64,000 nucleotides of DNA, taken from NCBI RefSeq assembly GCF_947498095.1, contig NZ_CANMJE010000003.1, positions 248,001 through 312,000 on the forward strand. The letters are read 5' to 3'. The notes under the pieces were generated by a model. It was not told where the DNA came from and ran no database searches. It saw nothing but the letters and a program-made list of their open reading frames with translations. This document shows positions 53,666 through 64,000 of this stretch, piece after piece; position 1 is the stretch's first letter; every line of letters starts with the position of its first letter. The translations under genes and the position numbers were made by a program. Source of the stretch: an uncultured Shimia sp. (GTDB lineage: Bacteria; Pseudomonadota; Alphaproteobacteria; Rhodobacterales; Rhodobacteraceae).

Positions 53666-53754
53666 GTTCGATTTGTACCAGAGATGGCGTGAAATATCCA
53701 TTCACTTGTTATCTGATTGCCCCCAGACTGATCTCAACTCAGGAGGATTGCGCC

Positions 53755-54933
53755 ATGACCATGAAAACCAAAGTCGGCATTATCGGGGGCGGCCCGTCGG
53801 GGCTGATGCTGAGCCAGTTGCTCGATCTGAAAGGCATCGACAACATCGTGTTGGAAAAACACAGCCGCGAATATGTTCTGGGCCGCATTCGTGCTGGCGT
53901 TCTGGAACACGGGTTTGCCGAACTGATGCGCGAGGCAAATTGCGGCGAGCGCATGGATGCCGAGGGCGAGATCCACGATGGGTTCTATATCGCTGAGGGT
54001 GGTGAGAAACGTCGCGTTGATCTGGCAGGTCACACTGGAGGCAACTCGGTTGTGGTTTACGGCCAGACGGAACTGACCCGCGACCTTTATGATGCGCGTG
54101 AGAAGATGGGGGGCAACGTCATTCACAACGTGGATGATGTGAAATTGTTCGATCTGAAGTCGGACGCGCCCTACATCACCTATCGCAGTGGGGATGACAT
54201 TATCCGCATCGATTGTGACTATGTGATTGGCGCCGACGGGTTCCACGGTGTGAGCCGCAAGTCGATCCCATCGGATGTGTTGCGGGAGTACGAAAAACTC
54301 TATCCATTTGGTTGGCTCGGGGTGCTGAGCCGCACCAAGCCCGTTTCGCCCGAGCTGATCTATGCCAAGAGCGACCGCGGCTTCGCGCTATGCTCGCTGC
54401 GCAGTCAAGTTCTTAGCCGCTATTACATTCAAGTTCCGCTGACAGATACGGTTGAAGACTGGTCGGACGAGGCTTTTTGGACCGAGCTTAAAGCCCGCCT
54501 GCCAAAAGACGTTGCCGATGGGTTGGAAACGGGTGACTCGATCGAGAAAAGCATCGCACCCTTGCGCAGTTTCGTGGCCGAGCCGATGCGCTATGGCAAC
54601 TTGTTCCTGGCGGGCGACGCTGCCCATATCGTGCCGCCCACCGGCGCACGGGGTCTGAACTCGGCGGCCAGCGATATCTACTACCTCTACCACGCGATGG
54701 TGGACCATTATCAGAACGGCGACGACACGGGCCTCGAAAACTATAGCGAGAAAGCTCTGGCGCGGATTTGGAAAGCGCAGCGGTTCAGCTGGTGGATGAC
54801 CACGCTGCTGCATACTTTCCCGGACAACATTGACTATGACAACAAGCTGCAACAGACCGATCTGGAGTACTTGTTCTCTTCCGAAGCGGCGCTGACGTCG
54901 CTGGCCGAAAACTATGTTGGGCTTCCCTTCTAA
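53755..54933 (+). CDS. pobA: 4-hydroxybenzoate 3-monooxygenase
   Basis: FAD-dependent hydroxylase of 392 residues converting 4-hydroxybenzoate to protocatechuate with NADPH and oxygen. The FAD motif GIIGGGPSGLMLSQLL is at about residues 8-23, RIRAGVLEHG near 42-51, CDYVIGADGFHGVSR near 152 and the second FAD motif LFLAGDAAHIVPPTGARGLN near 280-299. AGGAGG lies 9 bases before the ATG at 53755. The length matches characterised PobA (about 394). It feeds the 4,5-cleavage pathway to its left, and a strong terminator follows. Confidence 0.95.
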   Translation: MTMKTKVGIIGGGPSGLMLSQLLDLKGIDNIVLEKHSREYVLGRIRAGVLEHGFAELMREANCGERMDAEGEIHDGFYIAEGGEKRRVDLAGHTGGNSVVVYGQTELTRDLYDAREKMGGNVIHNVDDVKLFDLKSDAPYITYRSGDDIIRIDCDYVIGADGFHGVSRKSIPSDVLREYEKLYPFGWLGVLSRTKPVSPELIYAKSDRGFALCSLRSQVLSRYYIQVPLTDTVEDWSDEAFWTELKARLPKDVADGLETGDSIEKSIAPLRSFVAEPMRYGNLFLAGDAAHIVPPTGARGLNSAASDIYYLYHAMVDHYQNGDDTGLENYSEKALARIWKAQRFSWWMTTLLHTFPDNIDYDNKLQQTDLEYLFSSEAALTSLAENYVGLPF

Positions 54934-56076: not shown

Positions 56077-57084
56077 CTATTCTTCCAGGGCTTCGGCCTG
56101 TGCGGCGGTCACGGCGACCATATGCATGACATCCTCGGCGGAACACCCGCGGGACAGATCATTGGCTGGTTTTGCAAGACCCTGAAGCACCGGGCCGATG
56201 GCAGCTGCGCCGCCGATCCTTTGGGCGATCTTGTAAGCAATGTTGCCACTTTCGAGGTTGGGGAACACAAATATGTTGGCATCCCCGCCAAGCGGCGAGT
56301 CGCTGGCCTTGGCGGCGGCCACATCCGGCACAAACGCCGCATCAAACTGCAACTCACCATCGATCATCAGGTCAGGGGCTGCCGCCTTGGCGATTTCCGT
56401 CGCTTTGACCACCTTGGACACAGCCGCATGCGAGGCACTGCCGCGCGTTGAGAAAGACAGCATCGCAACGCGGGCTTTTTCGGTGGTCAGGGCCTCAAAC
56501 GAGCTGGCTGAGGCCAAGGCAATTTGCGCCATTTCTTCGGCGTTCGGATCGACGACAAGACCGCTATCGGCAAAGATATAGGCACCCTTTTTGGCGTGGT
56601 GTGATTCACAAAACAGCATCAGGAAAAAGCTCGAGACCATGCTTGCCCCAGGCGCAACGCCGATCACTTGGATCGCCGTGCGCACGATCTCTGCCGTTGT
56701 TGCGACCGCGCCGCCGACGGTGCCATCTGCATGACCCGCCTTAACCAACAAAGCCGCATAGACATGCGGTTGGGTTACAGCACGCAAAGCCTTTTCCAGC
56801 GTCATCCCTTTGTGTTTTCGCAACTCGTAATAGAGGACAGCCAATTCATCGTGATGCGGGGATGTGGCGGGGTCATGAATTTCGATCCCGTCATCTGGTT
56901 CCGCCTTGAGCAGTGAAAACTGCAGCTTTACGGTCAATTCTTCGCCCACAAGGATGATTTTCGCGATCCCCCTTTTGCGGACTTCCAATGCGGCTTCGAC
57001 GATGCGTGGATCGGTGCCTTCGCTGAGTACGATTGTTTTCTGAGACCGGGCCGCGTTGCGCAACAGGGTTTCCAGCGGTTTCAT
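56077..57084 (-). CDS. pta: Phosphate acetyltransferase
   Basis: Short-form Pta of 335 residues interconverting acetyl phosphate and acetyl-CoA. Family stretches are IVLSEGTDPRIVEAA near residue 18, HADGTVGGAVATTAEIVRTA near 118, SFFLMLFCES near 152 and the C-terminal GDANIFVFPNLESGNIAYKIAQRIGGAAAIGPVLQGL. No acetate kinase gene is adjacent. In sulfonate degradation Pta handles acetyl phosphate released by Xsc, and this gene shares an upstream palindrome with soeA, which would suit that role. Otherwise it is a housekeeping Pta. Confidence 0.9.
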   Translation of the reverse strand: MKPLETLLRNAARSQKTIVLSEGTDPRIVEAALEVRKRGIAKIILVGEELTVKLQFSLLKAEPDDGIEIHDPATSPHHDELAVLYYELRKHKGMTLEKALRAVTQPHVYAALLVKAGHADGTVGGAVATTAEIVRTAIQVIGVAPGASMVSSFFLMLFCESHHAKKGAYIFADSGLVVDPNAEEMAQIALASASSFEALTTEKARVAMLSFSTRGSASHAAVSKVVKATEIAKAAAPDLMIDGELQFDAAFVPDVAAAKASDSPLGGDANIFVFPNLESGNIAYKIAQRIGGAAAIGPVLQGLAKPANDLSRGCSAEDVMHMVAVTAAQAEALEE

Positions 57085-57509: not shown

Positions 57510-58286
57510 ATGACCGACAGCGACAACAAAGACGGGAACATTCCAACCAACCTGCGTTTGCTGATGGTTCTTGAGGCCATGGCCGAAGCCGGAGTTCCTG
57601 TGACCCCCACCGAGGTTAACCATGACCTCGGCTTGCCCAAGCCAACGATACATCGCCTTTTTTCCACGCTTGAGGCCGAAGGTTTCATTCAGCGAGAAAT
57701 CGATGGGCGCGGGTATTCGCCGGGTCTGAGGCTTCGGAAAATGTCGGCCGGCATCCTGTCGTCTCTTCGTATCCGGACCTCGCGGGTCGCGATCTTGAAC
57801 AAACTGGCGGACGACGTGGGCGAGACCTGCAACATCGCACTGCCCGACCGCGACGCAATGGTTTATATCGACCGGGTCGAAACCAAGTGGCCATTGCGAA
57901 TCCAATTGCCTGTTGGGACGCGCGTGCCCTTTTACTGCACGGCCAGTGGCAAAATGTATCTCAGCAGCCTGGATCGGCGACACCTCAGGAATTATGCAAA
58001 CTCGGTTAAGTTCGAAGCCAAGACACCCAACACGATCACATCTCCGGAGCGTCTTATTGAAGAAGCCCTGAAAGTACGCGAACGCGGATATTCGGTGGAT
58101 AACAGTGAATTCATGGAGGGCATGGTCGCGGTTGCGGTGCCGATCGTTGATGGTCACGGGCGGCTGGTCTCGACATTGTCAGTTCACGCCCCCGATCAAC
58201 GCCTGATGCTCGAAGAAGCCGAGAGCCACGTGGATACCTTGAAAGCCGCAGCAGAGCAGCTTTCAAGTTTGTTGAACGACGTCTGA
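57510..58286 (+). CDS. IclR-family transcriptional regulator
   Basis: Regulator of 258 residues: winged helix-turn-helix at the N-terminus (PTEVNHDLGLPKPTIHRLFSTLEAEGFI, about residues 32-59) and an IclR effector domain (CNIALPDRDAMVYIDRVET near 110, YCTASGKMYLSSL near 145, EFMEGMVAVAVPIVD near 203). Divergent from pta and facing the broken tryptophanase gene tail to tail (6-base gap). Candidate binding site is the palindrome at 57262-57280, 230 bases upstream. The effector is unknown. Confidence 0.85.
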   Translation: MTDSDNKDGNIPTNLRLLMVLEAMAEAGVPVTPTEVNHDLGLPKPTIHRLFSTLEAEGFIQREIDGRGYSPGLRLRKMSAGILSSLRIRTSRVAILNKLADDVGETCNIALPDRDAMVYIDRVETKWPLRIQLPVGTRVPFYCTASGKMYLSSLDRRHLRNYANSVKFEAKTPNTITSPERLIEEALKVRERGYSVDNSEFMEGMVAVAVPIVDGHGRLVSTLSVHAPDQRLMLEEAESHVDTLKAAAEQLSSLLNDV

Positions 58287-58292
58287 GACCGT

Positions 58293-59657
58293 TTAGTCGG
58301 GTTCAAACTGGCACGTAAAGTGGCGCATCAGGTTGGGTTGCCGTGTGATGCGAAACCCTTTCAGAGCGCCTCGGATCCGGGTCAGTTCCTCGAAGACTTC
58401 GACAATATAGTCCGCATGGGACTGTGTGTAGGTTCGTCGAGGAATGGCCAGTCTGACCAGATCCATAGCAGCGGCCCGTTCTGAGCCATCCGGTTGCTGA
58501 CCGAACATCACAGTTCCAATCTCACAGCTTCGGATACCGCCCATCTCATAAAGTGCCACCGCCAGCGCCTGGCCGGGATACTGAAGCGGGTCGATGTGCG
58601 ACAGCCAGGCCCGCGCGTCGATAAAGACCGCATGACCACCCGCCGGTTTGACGACCGGCACACCCATTTGGTCCAATTGCTCTGATATATAGGCGTTGGT
58701 CCGGATGCGGTACCGCAGATAATCTTCGTCGATAATCTCGCTCAGCCCCTGCGCCAGCGCTTCGAGGTCGCGACCAGAGAGGCCGCCATAAGTTGGAAAG
58801 CCTTCGGTGCGGATCAGGTGATTGCGCGCCTGTTCGGCGAGCGCTGCATCGTTGAGCGCTAACCAGCCGCCGATGTTGCCAAAGGCATCTTTTTTGGCGC
58901 TCATGGTCATGCCGTCGGCCTCCGCAAAACAATCCCGCACGATGTCGGGGATACTGCGATCTTGTTGCCCGGGCTCACGATCCTTGATGAACCACGCGTT
59001 CTAAGCAAAGCGGCATCCATCAATAAAGAAGGGCTTGTCAAACTTGCGCGCCAAAGCTGCTGTGCCTTGGATGTTTTCAAGGCTCACCGGCTGTCCGCCA
59101 CCTGCATTGTTGGTGATGGTCAACATCACGCATGGCACGCTGTCGCCGTGCTTGGTCAGGTAGGCTTCGAGTTTTTCGAGATCCATATTGCCCTTGAACG
59201 GATGCATATTGGCCGGATCATGACCTTCCTTGATCACAAGGTCATGGCCTTCGGCGCCAGAGGCTTCGATATTGCCACGGGTCGTGTCGAAGTGCGTGTT
59301 GTTGGGGATGTTGCGCCCCGTGCCGCCGAACATCGAGAACAGGATTGCCTCGGCGGCGCGCCCTTGGTGAGTGGGGATGATGTGGTTGAACGGCATGAGG
59401 TTTTTGACCGCCGCTTCAAAGCGATAGAAGGATGGAGAACCAGCATAACTCTCGTCGCCACGCATGACGGCAGACCACTGCGCCGCGCTCATTGCGCCAG
59501 TACCGCTATCAGTCAAGAGGTCGATCAGCACGTCGTCGGAGTGCAGCGCGAACAGGTTGTAGTGGGCATCTCGGATCAGCTTTTTCCGCTCTTCGCGAGT
59601 GGTCATACGGATCGGTTCTACGGATTTGATGCGAAAGGGTTCGATGATTGTTTTCAT
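58293..59657 (-). pseudogene. tnaA: Tryptophanase/tyrosine phenol-lyase family gene interrupted by an in-frame TAG
   Basis: Read through, this gives a 454-residue PLP-dependent beta-eliminating lyase close to TnaA and TPL. Before the stop: EPFRIKSVEPIRMTTREER, LLTDSGTGAMS, MRGDESYAGSPSFY and IPTHQGRAAE. After it: NAWFIKDREPG, then MTMSAKKDAF with the PLP Lys, EGFPTYGGLSGRD and LAIPRRTYTQSH. Codon 219 (59001-59003) is TAG where relatives have Glu in the R-F-A-E-N-A motif, a single-base change from GAG. Frame and all other landmarks are intact, so inactivation looks recent, or it is a sequence error. AGGAG precedes the ATG at 59657. Confidence 0.85.
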
Positions 59658-59826
59658 CACAGGGCTCCTGAATTCGGCCCCATAGGATTCGCGGCAACGA
59701 TTACACGAAGGAGCCGATGCGCTGCGGTTGTCCCAAGCGGACCGCGCTCAGCGCCCATTCGTTGCGCCTGTAACTTTTCAGGAAATGTCAGGGGCGTCAA
59801 AGGACAAGTTGTCGCTCTGACGAGGG

Positions 59827-60600
59827 TTACTTTTCGACCAGCGCCAAAACCCGCAAAGGGCTGCCTGTGCCGTTGCGAATTTTTAATGGGGGGGCGATCA
59901 GGATCGCACCTGTGGCAGGCAATTGGTCAAGGTTGGCAAGGCATTGCAGGCCCAGTTTGCCCGCGCCGTGCAGGATAAAGTGTGCAGGATAGGGGGGCGT
60001 GTAATGCGCGCCTTGTCCAGCGTCTGTGCCGACCGTTTCTGTGCCAAAGCCACGAATGTTGCGTTCTTCGGCCAGCAAGCGCATGGCGTCGGGGGTGGGG
60101 CCGGGAGAGTGTGGCCCGTCTTCGCGCATGTTCAGGTAGTCCGCGCCGCGCCGTTTGGACCAATCGGTGCGCATCAGAACCCAGGCGTCTTCGGGGATAC
60201 GGCCATGCTCCGCTTCCCAGGCTTCGATAATCTCGGGCGTCAGTTCAAAATCGTCGTCCTGTGCAGATCCTTCTGAACAGTCGATCACCACGACCGGGCC
60301 AACGAGTTTTTCCGCCGGGATCTCGTCCACAGCACCATTTGGCACATCGCGGCCCGAAATCCAGTGAACGGGGGCGTCAAAGTGGGTGCCTGTGTGTTCG
60401 GACATAGAGATATTGTGCCACTTCCATGCCGGTCCGCGATGGTCATAAGCGCTGACCTCTTCCATGCGAAAGCGGGCGCATTGGCCGAACTCGGGTGGCA
60501 GGATGATGACCGGGAAATCGGGATCGAGCGTGTGGGTCAGATCAACGATCTCGACCTCGCCCGAGGCCATGCGCTGTGTCAGGTCGGTAAGCGTGCTCAT
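59827..60600 (-). CDS. Cyclase-family (kynurenine formamidase-like) hydrolase
   Basis: Metal-dependent hydrolase of 257 residues of the cyclase/KynB family. The signature HTGTHFDAPVHW (residues about 69-80) supplies metal ligands, IVDLTHTLDPDFP opens the fold, and RGFGTETVGTDAG near 183 is also conserved. It overlaps the DUF35-SDR gene by 4 bases (ATGA) as the last gene of the minus-strand CoA operon, and the broken tryptophanase lies 169 bases downstream. KynB activity would need a tryptophan-catabolic context that is not otherwise visible, so a lactonase or amidase role within the CoA operon is equally possible. Confidence 0.78.
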   Translation of the reverse strand: MSTLTDLTQRMASGEVEIVDLTHTLDPDFPVIILPPEFGQCARFRMEEVSAYDHRGPAWKWHNISMSEHTGTHFDAPVHWISGRDVPNGAVDEIPAEKLVGPVVVIDCSEGSAQDDDFELTPEIIEAWEAEHGRIPEDAWVLMRTDWSKRRGADYLNMREDGPHSPGPTPDAMRLLAEERNIRGFGTETVGTDAGQGAHYTPPYPAHFILHGAGKLGLQCLANLDQLPATGAILIAPPLKIRNGTGSPLRVLALVEK

Positions 60601-61850
60601 CCCTGCTGTCCCTTTGTCATTTCTCGCTCAAGAATTTTGGGGCCCGCGCGGAAGCGTTCGATCATGTCTTTTGCCACGTCGCCGCAATAGACATCTTCCA
60701 GCCCATCCTTCAGCCCTTGCACAACTGACCGTGCAACGGCGGGCGGCAGAACCTTCGGTGGGGGCAATTCCTGATGCCAGTCGTCCTCGGTCGGGCCGAC
60801 AAAGACGTTCATGACGCGCAATCCTGAGGCGCGGAAGTCATTGCGCAGGTTTTGACTGAGCGAATATGCGGCGGCGTTGGAGGCGGAAAAACAGCCGTAG
60901 TCGGCAGAGTTCACCAACGCGTAGGCCGAGAGAATATTGACCCAAGCCACGGCGGAATTCACGCCGTCGGCCGTGCGCGAACACATGCCTGGCCCAAAAG
61001 CCTGAGCCAGTCGCATGAGGCCAAAGTAATTCACTTCCATCTCGTCCTGGGCAAAGCCCACGTCACCACGGGCCATCGCGCCGCCGGGGCGGACAAATTG
61101 AGCGTTGTTGATGAGAATATCGAGCTTGCCGCCGATCTCGCCTGCGAGTTCCTTTACCGAGGTTGTGTCAGTGACGTCCAGCGCCATGATCTCGACCCCG
61201 GGAATGGCGGTGAGTGCGTCGCGCTGGGGATTGGGGAGCCATGATTCAGCCTCACCGACAAAGATCATCGTGGCGCCTGCGTCGTGCAGAGCCTTAGCCA
61301 GTGTTGGCGCATTAGGGTTGCGCGCGTCGGTGATCAGGACGCGGCGGTGTTTCGGATCGGAGGACATGGCGCGCAATTCGGGGTCGTCTTCCATATCGGG
61401 TGTCCTTTGTTCAGGCAGGGCCATCATGACGCCTTGGCCGGAGCGGTCCAGCCGGTTCGACAGGATCACGCGGGATTTAGGGGCGACGTCGCCGTGAACG
61501 TGGCAGATGATCGTCGGGCCGGCGTCGAGTTGCACCGAGCCGAGCCGCCACGGCGCGCGTTCGCGAAAGTAGAGATTGGTAGAGGTGCGCACAGTGGATT
61601 CCGCCAGCAGGGTGCCTGTGGGGGAGATGTCTTTCCATGGCAGATCGACCGACAGGCATTTGCAGCAGGCGTCGCGAGGCGGGTATTGCACGGTGCCGCA
61701 CTCGGCGCAGGTTTGCAGCATGAAACGGCCTTCGGCGGCGGCCGCGGTGAGGCCAAGCGTGGCACGGGACCGCACGCCGGGGGGCGAGGTTGGCGTGAGG
61801 CTGCGTTTCAGCGGGTTCTTTTTGGGCGGTGGTGTCAGCGGCGTGGTCAT
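60597..61850 (-). CDS. DUF35 zinc-ribbon/OB-fold protein fused to a degenerate SDR domain
   Basis: Two-domain protein of 417 residues. The N-terminal part (about 1-150) is a DUF35 unit with zinc ribbon C-x2-C-x10-C-x2-C (CAECGTVQYPPRDACCKC, about residues 47-64) and an OB-fold. The C-terminal part (about 165-400) has SDR-like secondary structure and the NNAQ motif (DILINNAQFVRPGGAM). The glycine-rich cofactor loop is replaced by ITDARNPNAP, and the YxxxK catalytic pair reads FSASN, so oxidoreductase activity is doubtful. It overlaps the thiolase-like gene upstream and the cyclase gene downstream by 4 bases each. DUF35 proteins are obligate partners of thiolase-fold aldolases; this one is probably the same. 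Confidence 0.8.
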   Translation of the reverse strand: MTTPLTPPPKKNPLKRSLTPTSPPGVRSRATLGLTAAAAEGRFMLQTCAECGTVQYPPRDACCKCLSVDLPWKDISPTGTLLAESTVRTSTNLYFRERAPWRLGSVQLDAGPTIICHVHGDVAPKSRVILSNRLDRSGQGVMMALPEQRTPDMEDDPELRAMSSDPKHRRVLITDARNPNAPTLAKALHDAGATMIFVGEAESWLPNPQRDALTAIPGVEIMALDVTDTTSVKELAGEIGGKLDILINNAQFVRPGGAMARGDVGFAQDEMEVNYFGLMRLAQAFGPGMCSRTADGVNSAVAWVNILSAYALVNSADYGCFSASNAAAYSLSQNLRNDFRASGLRVMNVFVGPTEDDWHQELPPPKVLPPAVARSVVQGLKDGLEDVYCGDVAKDMIERFRAGPKILEREMTKGQQG

Positions 61851-63022
61851 GCGGCACCGCCTTTCAGGATCGCGGCACTTGAACAGACGCCCCGGTCATA
61901 ATTGATCATGCCAAAACCTGAAACCATGGCGCGGGTGGCGCCTGCAACTTGGGTTGGCCCTGCAAATCCTGTCACCTGTCTGATGGCCTCGACAAGGCCG
62001 ATAAAGCCGCCAGCCGCCCCGGCTTGACCGGCGCTAAGCTGGCCGCCAGAGGTGTTATGAGGGAAGTTTCCGGTGATGGTGAGATCGTGGTTGCGCACGA
62101 AGTCGGGGGCGCCGCCCTTGGAGCAAAAACCAAGGTCCTCGATCTGCATCATCGAGATGACGGGGTAATCGTCATAAGTCTGCAAAAGGTCGATGTCTGT
62201 GGGCGCGCACTGGGCTTGGTTGTAAAGCTCGTCAATGTCGACCGTCCAGCCGCCGCGCAGTTGGATGGGGTCACTGGCGTGGGCATTGTGGCGTTCGATG
62301 GCGCCCTCGATAGTGGCATAGCGCAGGCCGCGTTTTTGTGCTTCGTCCACGGTCATGACCAGAAAGGCCTCGGACCCCGCGCAGGGCATGACACAATCAA
62401 ACAGCGCGATAGGGTCAGCGATGGGGCGGGCATCAATGTATTGCTGCAGCGTCAGGGGTTTCTTCATCAAAGCCCCGGGGTTCTTCAGGGCATTATCGCG
62501 TTGGGCGACCGCGATACGGCCAAAATCTTCGCGGGTGGCGCCGTACTCGTGCATGTAACGGTCTGTCAGCAATGCAAAATTCGCGTTGGGGCCGCCAAAG
62601 CCATAAGGATAAGACGCGTCCATTGCGAAGCGCGAAAAAGACGAGAGCAGCGCGCGGAAGCTGTCGATGTGGTTGGTGTCGCCCGAGACGCAGGCAACAA
62701 TGTCGGCATCGCCGGATTGCACCGCGCGGGCGGCCTTGCGCAGCGAGATCACACCAGACGCGCCACCCATGGGAATGTGGTCCAGCCAGCGGGGGCTGAG
62801 GCCGAGGTGCTGGGTCAGGCCGACGGCGGTGTCGGGAAAAAGCGTGAAACTGGCCACGGAAAACCCATCAAGATCGGCCGGTTTCAAGCCCGCAGCATCC
62901 AACGATCCACGCAGCGCGCGGGCGATCCACCAATGGGCGGTTTCAATCGAATAGCGCTGATAGGGGATCGACACTGGCGCAACCAGTGCCACGCCCTCGT
63001 ATGATTGCCGGGGTCTGGTCAC
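61847..63022 (-). CDS. Thiolase-superfamily protein lacking the acyl-accepting cysteine (Ltp2/SCP-x-like)
   Basis: Thiolase-fold protein of 391 residues with a GTG start that overlaps the acyl-CoA synthetase stop (GTGA); a longer frame upstream lacks similarity. The position of the nucleophilic Cys in ordinary thiolases reads MGGASGVISLRKAARAV, so the Cys is absent. The C-terminal FPHNTSGGQLSAGQAGAAGG segment is typical of SCP-x/Ltp2-type members. Proteins of this subgroup with a DUF35 partner carry out retro-aldol cleavage of 3-hydroxyacyl-CoAs in steroid side-chain degradation. The next gene encodes a DUF35 protein, so aldolase rather than thiolase activity is inferred. Confidence 0.8.
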   Translation of the reverse strand: MTRPRQSYEGVALVAPVSIPYQRYSIETAHWWIARALRGSLDAAGLKPADLDGFSVASFTLFPDTAVGLTQHLGLSPRWLDHIPMGGASGVISLRKAARAVQSGDADIVACVSGDTNHIDSFRALLSSFSRFAMDASYPYGFGGPNANFALLTDRYMHEYGATREDFGRIAVAQRDNALKNPGALMKKPLTLQQYIDARPIADPIALFDCVMPCAGSEAFLVMTVDEAQKRGLRYATIEGAIERHNAHASDPIQLRGGWTVDIDELYNQAQCAPTDIDLLQTYDDYPVISMMQIEDLGFCSKGGAPDFVRNHDLTITGNFPHNTSGGQLSAGQAGAAGGFIGLVEAIRQVTGFAGPTQVAGATRAMVSGFGMINYDRGVCSSAAILKGGAA

Positions 63023-64000
63023 GCAACTTGCCTTTTCTTCAGGTGGAGTGTGTTGACAGTTGCGGGATCGGTCAAGAGGGCTGCGGCCATCGCTTTGAGG
63101 TCGGCGCGCTGGATTTTCTGTGTTGAGGTCAGCGGCAAGGCGTCGACAAAGGCGACATAGCCCGGCACTTTGTAATAGGCCATTTGCTCCAGCGCCCAAG
63201 TCACGATCTCTTCAGCCTTGGCCGACGACGGGTTGGCGACAGTCAGACAGGCGAACACTTCGTCTCCGCGTACAAGGTCAGGCACAGGGGCGACAGCGGC
63301 GGCGGCGATATCGGGGTGGCGCATGAGGATGGATTCAACCTCGACCGCCGCGATGTTCTCGCCAGAGCGGCGGATCACGTTTTTCTTGCGGTCGACGAAA
63401 AAGACGAAACCGTCGGCATCGGCGCGAACAACGTCACCAGTGTGGAACCAGCCGTTTTCCCAAGCCTCATCGGTGGCCTCTGGGTTCTTGTAGTATTCGC
63501 TGAAGAAGCCAAGACGCGGGCTGTCGCCCTTGCGGCGGACGAGGAGTTCGCCAGGGTCGCCGGGGGTAACCTCAACGCCTGCGTCGTCGATGATCGAGAC
63601 GTCGAGCCAGTCGGGGACTTGCCCTAGAGCGGATTGGCCGATGAGGCGGTCGTGGGTGTGGTTTGAGATCACTGCGCCTGCACCGGTCTCGGTCATGGCC
63701 CAGGCCTCCATCAGGGGGAAGCCGTAGCGATCCTCAAAGGCCCCGTGCAGTTTGGGATCAACACCTGCTCCAAAGCCAAAACGGACGGTGTGGTCGGTGT
63801 CCGTAGGGGCTGAGTCCATGCCCATCAGCATTGAGGGCATGACACCGAGGTAGTGCAGGCAAGTGGCGCGGCTATCTTTGACGTCTTGCCACCAGCTGCG
63901 GGGATGGAAACGGTCGAGGGCTGTGAGACAACCGCCGACGGTGACCATCGCCATAAAGGAATAGGCCATGGCGTTCATGTGGAAGATCGGCAGGGGCGTG
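63019..64000 (-). CDS. Acyl-CoA synthetase (AMP-forming), 3' part, cut by the window edge
   Basis: C-terminal 327 residues of an adenylate-forming enzyme; the gene continues beyond the right end. Visible motifs are the partial core TPLPIFHMNAMAYS, the acyl/AMP-binding EAWAMTETGAG, the ATP-binding GWFHTGDVVRADADGFVFFVDRKKNVIRRSGENIAAVEVE region and the catalytic Lys in LPLTSTQKIQRADL near the end. It should activate a carboxylic acid to its CoA ester for the downstream thiolase-like/DUF35 pair, with which it is translationally coupled (4-base overlap). Substrate not determinable. Confidence 0.88.
   Translation of the reverse strand, partial: TPLPIFHMNAMAYSFMAMVTVGGCLTALDRFHPRSWWQDVKDSRATCLHYLGVMPSMLMGMDSAPTDTDHTVRFGFGAGVDPKLHGAFEDRYGFPLMEAWAMTETGAGAVISNHTHDRLIGQSALGQVPDWLDVSIIDDAGVEVTPGDPGELLVRRKGDSPRLGFFSEYYKNPEATDEAWENGWFHTGDVVRADADGFVFFVDRKKNVIRRSGENIAAVEVESILMRHPDIAAAAVAPVPDLVRGDEVFACLTVANPSSAKAEEIVTWALEQMAYYKVPGYVAFVDALPLTSTQKIQRADLKAMAAALLTDPATVNTLHLKKRQVA

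Follow-up and report, generated by a model that had tools for sequence, protein, structure and literature searches.

The window analysed here, a stretch of 64,000 nucleotides from an uncultured Shimia sp. (positions 248001-312000 of the source contig), harbours at its right end four minus-strand genes of an operon that is assigned below to the iad (auxin, or indole-3-acetic acid (IAA), degradation) system. These encode an AMP-forming acyl-CoA synthetase (iadF, 63019..64000, comprising the 326 C-terminal of 541 residues; AMP-binding and AMP-binding_C domains), a thiolase-fold protein of 391 amino acids that is proposed to be a retro-aldolase subunit (iadG, 61847..63022; Thiolase_C_1), a DUF35 protein (zinc ribbon and oligonucleotide-binding (OB) fold, residues ~36-150; zf-ChsH2, OB_ChsH2_C) joined to a catalytically dead short-chain dehydrogenase/reductase (SDR) domain (residues ~165-410; adh_short) (iadH, 60597..61850), and a cyclase-family hydrolase (iadI, 59827..60600; Pfam Cyclase) matching isatin hydrolase A (5NNB, 1.4e-158). 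A preliminary description of the window had recognised four coupled genes, namely a synthetase, a Cys-less thiolase fold, a DUF35 fusion and a cyclase, and the Pfam domains, shared strand and 4-nt overlaps bear this out. Three of the genes lie in the interval it gave (60597-64000), but the cyclase gene is situated just to the left of it and the synthetase gene continues to 64644.

Upstream sequence was retrieved from the same genome (locus L002; window position = L002 position + 52000, conversion checked), where the full iadF open reading frame (ORF) of 541 residues runs past the right window edge to L002:12644, equivalent to window coordinate 64644. Extension to the right revealed the rest of the operon, as had been anticipated: a Rieske beta subunit gene (Ring_hydroxyl_B), a combined reductase-Rieske alpha ORF and a MarR gene. 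All five junctions from the Rieske alpha gene through to the cyclase gene consist of ATGA or GTGA 4-nt overlaps; for instance, the GTG start codon of iadG at 63022 overlaps the iadF stop, and this start (391 amino acids) is most likely the correct one rather than a TTG at 63199. The reductase IadC and the Rieske alpha subunit IadD are encoded by a single ORF of 778 amino acids (L002:13117-15453, minus strand, past the right window edge), an arrangement found in two of 73 comparable loci (that of the window and L059), with separate ORFs in the other 71. Upstream of the operon, another MarR gene and an SDR gene (L002:16946-17683) are oriented divergently, and the latter, whose catalytic residues are intact, may encode a putative IadJ orthologue.

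On sequence grounds, the operon (MarR, reductase-Rieske alpha, beta, F, G, H and I) is an iad operon. Amongst solved structures, its Rieske alpha subunit matched 9O71 first (1.7e-166), followed by the Rieske protein 7YLS (8e-166), with biphenyl dioxygenase far behind (8e-39); 9O71 is, according to the available text of PMC12633357, the Variovorax paradoxus CL014 IadDE. Two genomes of one genus (G636 and G958) display the gene order C-D-E-F-G-H-I-J and encode an IadD 94% identical to 9O71, whilst the G and H proteins of the window are 63% and 53% identical to theirs. The window operon, which encodes IadD and IadE Rieske orthologues in the order C-D-E-F-G-H-I along with a MarR regulator, is therefore identified as iad; the preliminary description had assigned the gene classes correctly but had not recognised this known locus. 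As far as the accessible portions of PMC12633357, PMC9613470 and PMC10374108 describe the iad locus of V. paradoxus CL014, it shares with the window the C-I order and adjoining MarR regulators, and its Rieske alpha, F, G, H and I are orthologous to those of the window. It differs in that the window carries the reductase and Rieske alpha as one ORF and has its intact SDR, possibly IadJ, divergently upstream, whereas IadJ follows I in Variovorax. The roles published for G and H also differ from those proposed here.

The presence of Gly at the position of the acyl-accepting Cys of thiolases, already noted in the preliminary description, was evident as Gly87 in all 110 related IadG rows (108 distinct; the copy of the window counted). 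The motif Y283-D-D-Y286, at the position of the thiolase HDCF motif, was likewise invariant in the 110 rows together with Gln328 and Gln333, and the His of the thiolase GHP motif was replaced by Gln throughout; the aligned thiolases show Cys, HD-A/C-F and GH at the corresponding positions. A search for the nucleophilic Cys combined with the GHP His identified them in 0/110 IadG rows.

A phylogenetic tree of 44 rows, 22 of them IadG (L178, L179, L182 and L186, for which no alignment was obtained, left out, and L183, the window itself, removed), grouped the IadG rows in a single clade (support 100/100). This joined an uncharacterised clade bearing a YDDF motif (98/95), with Sal and Ltp2 aldolases nearby and Cys-thiolases apart (100/99); the tree holds two Sal and two Ltp2 rows only, and their order (82/63) is unsure. 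The preliminary description had regarded a conserved catalytic Cys elsewhere in the active site, or a placement within biosynthetic thiolases with no DUF35 contact, as decisive against its proposal, and it was found instead that none of the 110 rows has the Cys and that the Cys-thiolases form a separate group. The identification of IadG as a thiolase was rejected on these grounds, with the Cys, the HD motif and the GHP His all gone. Genes of the YDDF sister clade, which also have Gly for Cys (L188:7137-9570, L189:7159-9551 and L190:6872-10845), are flanked by an enoyl-CoA hydratase-like gene on one side and a small DUF35 gene on the other, close to a CoA ligase gene, and probably represent another, uncharacterised aldolase system.

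The best solved relative of IadG was CtSal (9MYR, 174 bits), then TcLtp2 (6OK1, 150 bits) and 4U4E (143 bits), with true thiolases ranking lower (7YVY, 115; 6ESQ, 103; benzoylsuccinyl-CoA thiolase, 101 bits). CtSal forms part of the Sal-Shy(DUF35) bile-acid aldolase of Comamonas testosteroni (9MYR; available text of PMC12329534), which likewise has a thiolase fold, Gly for Cys, a Tyr base in YDxY, two Gln residues and a DUF35 partner fused to a further domain. Alignment mapping indicated that CtSal Gly89, Arg216, Tyr302, Tyr305, Gln347 and Gln352 are kept in IadG, and the Sal/Ltp2 hallmark of Gly for the thiolase Cys plus a Tyr base in YDxY/F was present in 110/110 rows. The systems differ in the domain fused to DUF35, which is a MaoC hydratase in Shy and a dead SDR in IadH, in the non-steroid substrate proposed for IadG, and in active-site residues, CtSal Cys304, Gln161 and Gly391 being lost. 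The Thermomonospora curvata Ltp2-ChsH2(DUF35) complex (6OK1) has in common with IadG and IadH the thiolase fold, Gly for Cys, the first Tyr of its YDHF motif and the DUF35 partner, but its second Tyr (344) corresponds to Gln333 and YDHF to YDDY. Neither known catalytic acid (Sal Cys304 or Ltp2 Tyr344) is kept, Asp285 and Gln333 occupying those places, and because the catalytic acid differs we propose that IadG may work like Sal and Ltp2 whilst being a member of neither.

IadH was examined in 103 full-length rows (102 distinct) of the 110 loci, leaving out seven that were incomplete or DUF35-only (L038, L039, L055, L077, L099, L100 and L156). The DUF35 zinc ribbon reported in the preliminary description was upheld, with four zinc cysteines (CCCC) in 102/102 distinct proteins, but the fused SDR-fold domain of ~250 amino acids, with its lost catalytic residues, had been overlooked. 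The catalytic Tyr and Lys (Tyr-x3-Lys) remained in just 1/102 and the three-glycine motif (TGx3GxG) in 0/102, the window IadH carrying Phe321 and Asn325 at the Tyr and Lys positions; IadH was consequently rejected as a working dehydrogenase. Separate SDR proteins, selected at >=40% identity to an intact SDR (82 rows, 80 of these within 6 kb of G), retained Tyr, Lys and the glycine motif in 80/80 cases within that distance. The mean top-residue frequency of the IadH SDR domain (0.69) is comparable to that of the DUF35 part (0.68), therefore the dead domain appears to have been kept for a role other than oxidoreduction, and we propose that it is a conserved non-catalytic scaffold. Locus L039 encodes a stand-alone DUF35, so some lineages may be able to do without the fused SDR domain.

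The DUF35 part of IadH resembles the TcChsH2 DUF35 of the Ltp2 complex (6ok1_B, E 7.9e-5), and a DUF35 gene adjoins G in 109/110 loci, with none within the retrieved stretch of L156. A model of IadH (8 sequences; predicted local distance difference test (pLDDT) 62.7) was usable in its SDR part only, where the fold matched 5u4s (Z 27.1, root-mean-square deviation 2.6, 232 residues aligned), and the fold list is hardly a test of the DUF35 part.

The product that follows G and H in the pathway was indicated by the cyclase. In Roseibium aggregatum IAM 12614 (L085), the cyclase gene of the same kind of operon matches 5NNB end to end, with 257/257 residues aligned and no mismatch, and the window cyclase is 85.2% identical to it over 257 amino acids. 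The available text of PMC6117287 describes 5NNB as isatin hydrolase A from Labrenzia (Roseibium) aggregata, whose structure was determined with isatinate and whose activity was assayed with isatin, and is the source for the meaning of the WxW (pocket) and GLQC motifs. Across the operon cyclases (98 of the 110 loci), GLQC was found in 95/98, WxW in 93/98 and HTGTHFDAP in 96/98; all three are present in IadI of the window, which at 85% identity shows no notable difference from 5NNB. Kynurenine formamidase was rejected as an identity for the cyclase, TIGR03035 scoring 34 bits against a cut-off of 223 and isatin hydrolase A matching far better. Since the cyclase is an isatin hydrolase by sequence, the step before it would deliver isatin, which is most likely the product downstream of G and H.

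According to the available text of PMC12633357, the IadCDE Rieske oxygenase and a dehydrogenase convert IAA to dioxindole-3-acetic acid (DOAA) in Variovorax, F, G, H and I are all required, C10H9NO4 (dioxindole-3-acetate) rises when any of these four genes is deleted, and C8H7NO3, C7H7NO and C7H7NO2 (anthranilate) are detected; isatin was reported in 2022 (PMC9613470, available text). We infer that IadF would convert DOAA to DOAA-CoA, whose C3-CH2 bond would be cut in a retro-aldol reaction by IadG and the IadH DUF35 domain, as a putative complex. Tyr283 could deprotonate the tertiary hydroxyl at C3, such that C3 departs as the isatin ketone, and Asp285, next to Gln328 and Gln333, could give a proton back to the acetyl-CoA enolate, after which IadI would hydrolyse isatin to isatinate. 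DOAA-CoA has a tertiary beta-hydroxyl and cannot be oxidised to a beta-ketoacyl-CoA, therefore a thiolase would be without a substrate, whilst a retro-aldol cut would yield isatin and acetyl-CoA directly. The formulae balance along this route: C10H9NO4 equals C8H5NO2 plus C2H4O2, isatin plus H2O gives C8H7NO3, loss of CO2 gives C7H7NO, and C7H7NO2 follows.

On the sequence evidence and the chemistry of the pathway, it is thus probable that this is an iad operon in which IadG and IadH act as a retro-aldolase converting DOAA-CoA to isatin and acetyl-CoA. The preliminary description had envisaged acid activation, an Ltp2/ChsH2-like retro-aldol cut of a non-steroid substrate and a cyclase acting on a product, all of which fits the findings; the operon context now points to auxin-derived DOAA as that substrate. 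Several observations weigh against the assignment. The CtSal oxyanion-hole residues Gln161 and Gly391 correspond by alignment to Pro145 and Met372 in IadG, the essential acid Cys304 of CtSal corresponds to Asp285, no precedent for a Cys-to-Asp swap at an aldolase acid was found, and the predicted structure of IadG (from 7 sequences) reached a pLDDT of only 46. Furthermore, C8H7NO2 (isatin + 2 H) builds up without IadI, and isatin is not listed there in the available text of PMC12633357; we assume that this compound, dioxindole, is isatin reduced by other enzymes. Whether IadG and IadH typify a third kind of catalysis among thiolase-fold retro-aldolases (Tyr-Asp, with YDDY or YDDF) for aromatic and heterocyclic acyl-CoAs, the dead SDR serving as a scaffold that hands reactive isatin to isatin hydrolase, is a tentative suggestion that we would sooner doubt than adopt.

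The distribution of the operon bears on the natural substrate. Among the best 80 of 554 confirmed places in a scan of named genomes, loci were found in genera including Phaeobacter, Ruegeria, Sulfitobacter, Roseibium, Paracoccus, Hoeflea, Nitratireductor and Aromatoleum, with the same cassette in most, and iadG occurred in 16/198 genomes of the source organism's own family (the source genome counted). H and I were near G in 82/82 loci with enough flank and a ligase (>=45% identity) in 71/82, whilst a Rieske alpha subunit (>=40% identity) was absent from the retrieved stretch in 10/82; the counts for H, I and the ligase apply to matches no more than 6 kb from G, and L046 and L088, which carry the alpha gene farther off than this, are not among the ten. 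Such loci, some of which hold different oxidases or CoA enzymes, would suit an IadG-IadH retro-aldolase whose natural substrate here would be a different indole or aromatic 3-hydroxyacyl-CoA and not the auxin product. This is nonetheless improbable, as the window operon does have Rieske genes, with an alpha subunit matching IadD, and the isatin hydrolase A motifs are kept in the cyclases, isatin being what DOAA-CoA would yield.

G-H-I trios without Rieske genes were observed at L033, L034, L036, L139, L140, L141 and L168. Their neighbours encode molybdenum-hydroxylase subunits (L034 and L036), Asp/Glu-racemase-family proteins (L033 and L139) or a two-flavin-domain protein (L140), and are possible other inflows to isatin. 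The aldolase-DUF35-isatin hydrolase trio seems to travel with isatin and not with one oxygenase, with the caution that every locus was found through similarity to IadG or IadH. Plasmids of Roseibium, Labrenzia and Sulfitobacter (records H1-H22) carry iadG relatives that are 73-85% identical, therefore the iad genes of marine bacteria may be transferred between replicons.

A 2025 preprint (PMC12633357, available text) assigns IadG as a ketothiolase and IadH as an alcohol dehydrogenase from annotation, which together with IadF would strip off the acetyl side chain by reduction, yielding C8H7NO2, and the accumulation of this compound both in the iadI deletion and in a strain that carries iadCDEFGH and JK2 agrees with that scheme. 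We judge it to be rather less probable still, given the loss of the thiolase residues in 110/110 IadG rows and of the dehydrogenase motifs in IadH, and a tertiary beta-hydroxyl that is not oxidisable to a beta-ketone. That IadG is non-catalytic and the side chain is cleaved by IadH or IadI is very unlikely, since the active-site residues of IadG are invariant in 110/110 rows, the SDR site of IadH has decayed and IadI is a known isatin hydrolase, even though IadH too is essential in Variovorax (PMC12633357, available text).

Both the iad operon and the class of thiolase-fold/DUF35 aldolases are already known. In the open-licence PubMed Central (PMC) papers searched, we found no aldolase role for IadG and IadH, no YDDY signature and no dead-SDR partner, and the available text of the PMC iad papers does not demonstrate the enzyme that removes the acetyl arm of auxin, the step being assigned by annotation in PMC12633357. 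If the retro-aldolase assignment is true, IadG and IadH supply the missing enzyme of the pathway, its carbon is balanced by way of isatin, and the enzyme list for engineered auxin-degrading inoculants is corrected. The thiolase-fold aldolases would then also include a branch acting on non-steroids, set apart by another catalytic acid and by a partner that is a pseudoenzyme.

Several further genes lie to the left of the operon in the window. A beta-eliminating lyase gene follows it directly (58293-59660, minus strand) and contains one in-frame stop, with Pfam Beta_elim_lyase in both halves; we take it to be of the tryptophanase or tyrosine phenol-lyase type, and the stop may denote a pseudogene, a sequencing error or readthrough. 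An IclR-family regulator (57510-58286) scored under the PcaR/PcaU cut-off, a 4-hydroxybenzoate 3-monooxygenase is encoded at 53689-54933, and a phosphate acetyltransferase (56077-57084) could consume the acetyl-CoA of the operon.

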